Source: Paenibacillus azoreducens (GTDB taxonomy: Bacteria > Bacillota > Bacilli > Paenibacillales > Paenibacillaceae). From it: 64,000 nucleotides of DNA. Each line of letters starts with the position of its first letter. Position 1 is the first letter of the stretch. This document shows, piece by piece, positions 20,283-22,079 of this stretch. The translations under genes were made by a program, and so were the position numbers. The DNA lies in assembly GCF_021654775.1 (NCBI RefSeq), contig NZ_AP025343.1, positions 3,191,501 to 3,255,500 on the forward strand. Reading direction: 5' to 3'. The notes beneath the pieces were generated by a model. The model had not been told where the DNA came from, did not search any database, and saw nothing but the letters and a program-made list of their open reading frames with translations.

Positions 20283-22079
20283 ATGAAGAAGATGAAGTCT
20301 TTCGGGAGTATCATACTTATCCTGAGCTTAGTCGTCATGCTGTCAGCATGCGGCAGTGGGAACAACAACGGCAAAGTGGCCGGCAACGAAGGCGAAAAGA
20401 GCGGCATCGTTACCGCTATCGGCGAAGGTGACGGTAAGCATGGTGCAATTAAGGTAGAAGTTACGTTCGAGAACAATGAAATGAAAGACATTAAAGTTCT
20501 TGAACAGAATGAAAATAAAGTGTTGGCTGAGCCTGTATATAAAGAATTAAAAGAAACGATGATCGATTCGAACAATGCAAATGTCGATGCGATCAGCGGC
20601 TCGACTTTGACAAGTAAGGGTTATATTGATGCCGTTAAAGATGCAGTCGCGAAGGCTGGATTGACGCTGGTTGCGAAGCAGGCTGCTAATAAGAACACAG
20701 CGGACGAGCCATCCGAGCAAACCTATGACGTCGTCATTATCGGTGCCGGAGGCGCTGGATTCAGCGCGGCTCTGGAGGCTAAGCAGGCAGGGGCTTCCGT
20801 CGTTCTATTGGAGAAAATGCCTACCGTAGGCGGAAACACGTTGATTTCCGGTGGCGAGATGAACGCTGCGGGCACATGGGTACAACAGAAGATGGGCATC
20901 AAAGACAGTGTGGATCTGTTCGCTGAAGATACGCTTAAAGGCGGAGACAATGTCGGCGATCCGGAAATGGTTCGCGTGCTTGCCGAGAATGCGACCGCTG
21001 CTGCAGAATGGTTGAAAAATGATATCAAAGTAAATTTCCTGGAAGATCACCTGTTCCAGTTCGGCGGTCATTCCGTTAAGCGTGCGCTTATTCCTGAAGG
21101 ACATACCGGTGCTGAATTGATTACGAAACTAAAGACGAAGCTGGATGACATGGGCATCGATCTGAAGACGAATACGAAGGCTGAAAAATTGCTCACAGAT
21201 GATAGCGGTAAAGTGAACGGCGTAGAAGCAACTGGAGCGAATGGCACTAAGATTACATTCCATGCAAATAAAGGTGTAGTCATTGCAACAGGCGGATTTG
21301 GATCCAATGTTGAAATGAGAAAGCAGTACAATCCGGAATTCGATGAGAAATATATGACTACGGATGCACCGGGTTCGACCGGGGATGGTATCGTCATGGC
21401 GCAAGCTGTTGGCGCTGCCTTGACCAATATGGAGAGTATCCAGACTTATCCGGTATGCAATCCTGTGACCGGCGTTATTTCGCTGGTTGCAGATAGCCGT
21501 TTTGACGGAGCAATCCTCGTCAATCAGAGCGGTAAACGCTTCGTTGAAGAACTGGAACGCCGCGACGTCATCTCCAGAGCGATTCTGGCTCAAAAAGGCG
21601 GCTACGCTTACCAATTGTGGAATCAGGACATCGGAGATATCAGCAAAACGGTAGAAGTGCATAAGGACGAATATGATATGCTCGTTAAGGAAGGCGTCCT
21701 ATACAAAGCCGATACATTGAAGGAAGCGGCAGAATTCTTCAAAATCGATCCGAAGGCGCTGCAAGAAACCATTGACCGTGTCAATAAATTCGCCAAATCG
21801 GGTAAGGATGAAGACTTCAAACACCGCGCGGGCTTGAAGGATATGAGCAAAGGTCCTTACTATATTGAAAAAGCCGTACCTTCCGTTCACCATACAATGG
21901 GCGGACTTGTAATCAACAAGACGACACAAGTCATGAATGAGAAGGGCGAGCGGATACCAGGGTTGTTTGCAGCTGGTGAAGTAACCGGCGTTATTCACGG
22001 TACGAACCGTCTAGGCGGGAACGCGATTGCCGATGCGATTACATTCGGGCGCATTGCCGGACAAGAAGCGGCCAAATAA
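20283..22079 (+). CDS. urdA: Extracellular flavinylated reductase, urocanate reductase-like (fumarate reductase flavoprotein family)
   Basis: 598-aa lipoprotein: lipobox MLSAC (Cys23), FMN_bind domain (about 40-130) with a flavinylation motif [10 protein letters not shown] (Thr108/Thr110), then an FAD-binding reductase domain from [19 protein letters not shown] (about residue 150). In soluble fumarate reductases the substrate is held by a His in an AHP motif. Here that position is Tyr389 (QTYPVCNP), with Asp404, Arg427 (acid Arg), His536 (HHTMGG) and Arg576 (GTNRLGG). Spacing from Tyr is +15, +38, +147 and +187, which equals the recalled UrdA residues Y373/D388/R411/H520/R560. It likely reduces urocanate to imidazole propionate as a terminal acceptor outside the membrane. 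Fumarate remains an alternative. No apbE gene is seen. Confidence 0.8.

Follow-up and report, generated by a model that had tools for sequence, protein, structure and literature searches.

Shewanella oneidensis is known to respire urocanate, a breakdown product of histidine, by means of UrdA, and an extracellular Gram-positive UrdA that reduces urocanate has been described from Enterococcus rivorum (Light et al. 2019, as cited in PMC8837199). In the S. oneidensis enzyme an N-terminal FMN domain is followed by FAD and clamp domains, whereas Fcc3 has a haem domain in place of the FMN domain (PMC7921117). According to a preprint, urocanate is turned into imidazole propionate by gut strains that have urdA, and histidine only by those that carry hutH as well (PMC13320830). 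The FAD-export subunit in Listeria is EetB, which serves the ApbE-type enzyme FmnB; FmnB flavinylates an FrdA encoded at another place (PMC9973259). Here we describe a gene at 20283..22079 of a 64,000-nucleotide stretch of the Paenibacillus azoreducens genome (contig NZ_AP025343.1, positions 3,191,501 to 3,255,500 of the forward strand; the whole stretch is called the window below). Judged from its sequence, this gene very probably encodes a urocanate reductase, UrdA, that is anchored to the membrane outside the cell and would let the bacterium pass respiratory electrons to urocanate from its surroundings.

Active site, layout and phylogeny of the protein

The gene and the parts of its product are as follows:

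20283..22079, + strand: predicted urdA-like gene for a flavin reductase lipoprotein of 598 amino acids (open reading frame call, 598 codons, ATG start)
20283..20351, + strand: signal peptide and lipobox LSAC with Cys23 (from the sequence; lipoprotein status predicted from the motif)
20433..20648, + strand: FMN_bind domain (PF04205), residues 51-122 (52.6 bits, cut-off 22)
20595..20606, + strand: predicted FMN-attachment motif SGST, residues 105-108 (a variant of the [S/T]GA[S/T]-like motif)
20727..22025, + strand: FAD_binding_2 reductase domain (PF00890), residues 149-581 (299.3 bits)
21447..21449, + strand: Tyr389 (UrdA Tyr373; His in Fcc3), by position check and alignments
21492..21494, + strand: Asp404 (UrdA Asp388, imidazole contact), by position check and alignment
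21561..21563, + strand: Arg427 (UrdA Arg411, proposed proton donor), by position check and alignment
21888..21890, + strand: His536 (UrdA His520), by position check and alignment
22008..22010, + strand: Arg576 (UrdA Arg560, carboxylate salt bridge), by position check and alignment

The original prediction had paired these last five residues with the urocanate-binding set of UrdA. Each of them was confirmed at its position in the protein, and the UrdA numbering used agrees with that given in PMC7921117, so that the spacings of +15, +38, +147 and +187 hold exactly. Alignment with UrdA (PDB 6t85) is ungapped between query residues 389 and 576. In the alignment with Fcc3, Tyr389 faces the Fcc3 His, which binds the second fumarate carboxylate; this position contributes to specificity (PMC7921117). 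Three substitutions set UrdA apart: Tyr373 replaces His, Phe391 replaces Gly, and Ala stands in place of Fcc3 Glu377 (PMC7921117). All three are present, as Tyr389 (Fcc3 His364/365), Phe407 (UrdA Phe391) and Ala403 (Fcc3 Glu377/378), the gap at 403/404 being set differently for the His-type rows of a 359-row alignment of related sequences. The imidazole contacts Asp388 and Glu177 of UrdA have counterparts in Asp404 and Glu192, the catalytic and carboxylate-binding set Arg411, His520, Arg560 and Gly563 is matched by Arg427, His536, Arg576 and Gly579, and the UrdA lid (Phe243, Phe245 and Phe391, here Phe258, Phe260 and Phe407) and Arg390 also have equivalents. Among gut UrdAs, Glu177 is described as not conserved and Asp388 as replaceable by Asn or Gln (PMC7921117).

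Taken as a string of 12 positions, EFFYADRFRHRG, the inspected residues are identical in the window protein and S. oneidensis UrdA. The exact string occurs in 154 of the 359 rows and in none of the 128 His-type rows; 76 others have the Tyr and differ elsewhere, and one (P0085) is gapped. These counts describe this set, which is no random sample: it comprises 320 proteins, merged from three search lists of the best 120 matches each, together with 35 loci and four references, and some entries are duplicates, the window protein and P0001 for example.

The wider comparison agrees. The protein matches TIGR01813, flavocytochrome c, at 531.7 bits (cut-off 285.45), and its top PDB sequence match is UrdA 6t85 (648.7 bits). 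A predicted model of residues 144-598 superposes on UrdA with an rmsd of 1.1 and 64% identity over 454 aligned residues. Relative to S. oneidensis MR-1 UrdA (PDB 6t85-6t88) the catalytic domains are thus 64% identical with 12 of 12 inspected positions and the same domain order, and the differences lie in the Gram-positive host, the lipobox, the SGST motif and the genome, in which neither hutH nor hutU was found. An E. rivorum homologue (P0050), which may not be the protein that was tested, is 66% identical, with a lipobox and the same 12-position string, and differs in that its host belongs to another family. With Fcc3 the protein shares the fold, the catalytic Arg and the carboxylate-binding residues; the UrdA residues Tyr, Ala and Phe correspond to His, Glu and Gly in Fcc3. 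Cys23 is unchanged across 29 aligned sequences, the window protein among them. The closest relatives are mostly named 'flavocytochrome c' at NCBI, with urocanate reductase used for several in UniRef and JGI; no UrdA model is among the best 25 of the 95 NCBIfam matches of the protein. Flavinylation is predicted from the FMN_bind domain and the SGST motif, for which the [S/T]GA[S/T]-like motif is the standard of comparison (PMC8238504).

In the phylogeny proposed as a check by the original prediction, the protein falls inside the UrdA clade, apart from fumarate reductases, and the His-type rows form a single separate clade (support 100/100). Neighbouring sequences from outside the window (L011:7971-9797 and many of P0241-P0318) keep the Tyr at the 373 position, whereas Asp388 is replaced by Asn, Glu177 by Gly and Phe243 by Gln; their string GQFYANRFRHRG occurs in 61 of the 359 rows, in addition to variants. 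These Asn-type neighbours are not one clade, and some (P0270, P0288 and P0318) have been named urocanate reductase automatically. They matter for metagenome surveys in which UrdA is counted by position 373 alone; urdA reads are sorted by that position in PMC7676231.

Flavinylation genes, hut genes and the family survey

The genome holding the window is one contig of 7.316 Mb. Of the two genes that the original prediction had suggested looking for, apbE is there, as a single ApbE (PF02424; G000:C1:5889390), and hutH is not: the genome has no match to PF00221, the histidine ammonia-lyase family, and none to the urocanase family PF01175 (hutU). Both searches matched Bacillus subtilis among the control genomes. 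PF07456 (EetB) occurs once, at 152.6 bits. Beside it, family models recognise NusG_II (EetA-like), an ECF ATPase and a CbiQ-type ECF-T, with a second ATPase seen by eye. A U32 peptidase and a UbiA-type prenyltransferase lie there too, and a polyprenyl synthase further off on the opposite strand. Of the FLEET (flavin-based extracellular electron transfer) locus, the FAD-export part is thus present, EetB together with ECF ATPases and ECF-T. No PplA, the flavoprotein of FLEET, was recognised, since the search of the genome for PF04205 matched the window protein alone; Lactococcus likewise lacks pplA (PMC8837199). No Ndh2 was recognised by eye among the open reading frames of locus L021, a genome-wide Ndh2 search not having been made.

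We considered PF07456 as an electron-transfer protein and dropped this, EetB being the FAD-export subunit according to PMC9973259; its co-occurrence with UrdA therefore supports flavinylation and points to no particular electron donor. In the same source, deletion of eetA is described as causing no defect in extracellular electron transfer. The lipoprotein signal, the FMN_bind domain, ApbE and the EetB-type FAD exporter agree in supporting an extracellular flavinylated enzyme as the predicted product of the gene.

The genome also encodes an FrdA-like paralogue (G000:C1:5420994-5422523; L018:9995-11524) of the extracellular fumarate reductase type (NF005064/PRK06481, to which Listeria FrdA presumably belongs), with 908.9 bits to NF005064 (cut-off 542). 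It shares the lipobox and the reductase family with the window protein and differs in its His-type site, in having no PF04205 match, and in overall sequence (40% identity); it carries an SGAS motif. Just upstream of it lie, by eye, a likely response regulator and sensor kinase. The lone FMN_bind match had suggested that ApbE has a single client. This was dropped in view of the paralogue's SGAS motif without the domain and of two genomes of the same genus (G150 and G191) that have ApbE and no FMN_bind match.

Among 197 genomes of the same family, sampled evenly from a larger group, ApbE was found in 144, the hutH family in 52, PF07456 above cut-off in 78 and FMN_bind in 81. UrdA at no less than 69% identity occurs in 24, and the 12-position string was verified in all of these. 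Genomes with UrdA have ApbE in 24 of 24 cases versus 120 of the 173 others (Fisher p 0.0004), EetB in 24 of 24 versus 54 of 173 (p 2e-11) and the hutH family in 13 of 24 versus 39 of 173 (p 0.002), p values that overstate the case because related genomes are not independent; the 11 without hutH include this one. ApbE of at least 270 bits and EetB mark an identical set of 78 genomes, under a threshold picked after viewing the list (lowest kept 271.9, next 250.9). The listed starts of the two genes lie at most 5 kb apart in 37 of these 78 genomes and in 18 of the 24 with UrdA, this genome not among them. Neither the window (30 open reading frames compared with Pfam, not all that it holds) nor the 8-kb flanks of six relatives (by eye, first 60 residues) showed a hut, apbE or eet gene linked to urdA.

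The identities of UrdA itself are suggestive of horizontal transfer. The protein is 79-87% identical to 10 of 14 copies from genus g6 (70-72% to the other four) and 69-71% identical to three other copies from its own genus, and the tree agrees for the rows included. Our yardstick, 2-oxoglutarate dehydrogenase, is 64-66% identical in the eight of those 10 g6 genomes for which a match is listed. Across 21 other genomes of the same genus as the window it is 63-64% in 19, with 73% and 91% in the remaining two. One yardstick does not settle the transfer of urdA, given that entries from P. alvei and P. dendritiformis likewise reach 82-87% identity to the FrdA-like protein.

Sequences flanking the gene

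Two further features adjoin urdA:

20165..20184, + strand: predicted Rex/FNR-like dyad, TGAAAGT-N4-ACTTTCA overlapping AGTGA-N6-TCACA (pattern match, at the same place in close relatives)
22196-23751, directly after urdA: two transposase open reading frames with HTH and rve domains (Pfam)

Within the dyad, AGTGATTACTTTCACA at 20169-20184 fits WGTGAN6TCACW, a pattern found twice in the window versus 0.09 times expected. The sole other exact match, TGTGAAAATAATCACA at 52236-52251, lies about 400 bases ahead of a DUF2500 gene (52648). In 30 upstream regions, taken from the window and 29 other loci (the Asn-type L011 among them), the pattern occurs within 250 bases in 16, against 0.02 expected from single-base shuffles. 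The Rex consensus reported for Staphylococcus aureus, TTGTGAAW4TTCACAA (PMC2883068), is matched at no fewer than 11 of 14 positions in 18 of the 30 regions versus 1.06 expected, the window scoring 11 against this S. aureus consensus. The independent cases are fewer than these counts suggest because close relatives share ancestry; differently worded boxes with the same layout do occur in different lineages. The upstream region of the Clostridium locus L010 has neither a WGTGAN6TCACW nor a Rex-consensus match. The FNR consensus coincides with that of Rex in half-sites and spacing, and a CRP/FNR site is for this reason not distinguishable from a Rex site.

A ribosome-binding-like AAGGGG ends 11 bases ahead of the urdA ATG. 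Scans for sigma-70 promoters and terminators gave sites no more numerous than in shuffles, and none before urdA. The transposase genes, which we take to be IS3-like, are missing at the matching place in L012, where the neighbours are otherwise the same; no inverted repeats at the ends of the element and no plasmid match were found, and the search for tandem repeats found none. Elsewhere in the window, 54212-55966 is an open reading frame of 584 amino acids with no Pfam match at E 1e-8.

Rival readings, proposed mechanism and meaning

Several observations weigh against the reading of the gene as a flavinylated UrdA. Its SGST motif departs from SGA[S/T]. For S. oneidensis UrdA and for Fcc3 the tree program flagged long branches, which makes their placement less sure, and the Tyr/Asp rows overall are not one group, two of them sitting among Asn rows. 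ApbE and EetB are separated by some 5.2 Mb in contig coordinates, and neither of them adjoins urdA, in front of which the sigma-70 scan found no promoter-like site. G150 and G191 have ApbE and EetB and neither an FMN_bind match nor UrdA; the pair is therefore not dedicated to UrdA and has other uses. As these are 2 of the 78 genomes with ApbE and EetB, an ApbE client without an FMN_bind domain likely exists in the family.

That the product is an extracellular fumarate reductase of the FrdA or Fcc3 kind with a drifted active site is most improbable. The superfamily is shared, and the sole model passed among those best 25 NCBIfam matches is the broad 'flavocytochrome c'; yet Tyr faces the fumarate-binding His, Ala403 faces Glu and Phe407 faces Gly, the His-type rows stand apart as a clade, and the genome already owns a His-type FrdA-like paralogue well above the NF005064 cut-off that the window protein, at 390.6 bits, does not reach. 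We rejected this identity on residues, tree and fold. A different aryl- or heteroaryl-acrylate as substrate, such as a cinnamate, is somewhat less improbable and still quite unlikely. The superfamily has many substrates, many of them unknown (PMC8238504), and in most neighbours that keep the Tyr three further pocket positions are Asn, Gly and Gln, so that pocket chemistry varies close to UrdA. Against it stand the full UrdA set with Asp404 and Glu192, the placement inside the UrdA clade and the effect of replacing Asp388 by Ala in UrdA, which lowers flavin oxidation by urocanate about 600-fold (about 2700-fold for Phe245Ala, ninefold for Glu177Ala; PMC10882135). A literature search on other acrylate acceptors gave nothing relevant. 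A decayed or unexpressed remnant is a scarcely credible reading of the gene: its distribution in the genus is patchy (4 of 22 sampled genomes, this one included), transposase genes follow it directly and no sigma-70-like site precedes it, but the frame is open, all inspected active-site residues are intact, the ribosome-binding-like sequence and the conserved dyad stand upstream, and a 91% identical copy in L012 has the same neighbours without the transposase genes.

A urocanate reductase is thus the reading supported by sequence, active site, predicted fold and phylogeny, the activity being inferred. Its precursor would be exported and then lipidated at Cys23. FAD would leave the cell through the EetB/ECF-type transporter and ApbE would attach FMN to SGST in the N-terminal domain, steps proposed because the genes are present and because of the published Listeria work. 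Electrons would pass from the quinone pool through a donor to FMN and on to FAD. By homology to the solved UrdA, FAD N5 would supply a hydride and Arg427 a proton to reduce urocanate to imidazole propionate, with the urocanate carboxylate held by Arg576, His536 and Gly579, the imidazole by Asp404 and Glu192, and the lid closed by Phe258, Phe260 and Phe407. Expression would probably rise at low oxygen or high NADH through the Rex- or FNR-type site. Urocanate would have to come from the surroundings, because neither hutH nor hutU was found in the genome, and may be used solely as an electron acceptor.

It is well supported that the window protein is a new example of a known enzyme and no new kind. 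To what is known, this example adds the complete set of residues, the lack of detectable hut genes, the family-wide tie to EetB and ApbE, and the upstream box; no paper pairing 'Paenibacillus' with 'urocanate reductase' was found in the open-licence library searched. A complete UrdA signature without detectable hutH or hutU makes this Paenibacillus, which we call a spore former from its genus, a clean test of urocanate scavenging. We see an even chance that urocanate is here a purely scavenged acceptor, neither produced nor consumed as a nutrient by a cell lacking hutH and hutU, that UrdA and the His-type FrdA-like enzyme are the flavinylated ends of one ApbE/EetB-served chain switched by Rex or FNR, and that across the family UrdA is a plug-in found only where the EetB-ApbE pair is already owned. 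Type 2 diabetes has been linked to imidazole propionate, a compound made by microbes, and gut bacteria have received most of the attention. If UrdA is indeed a plug-in tied to genomes with EetB and ApbE, free-living spore formers would supply imidazole propionate through cross-feeding.
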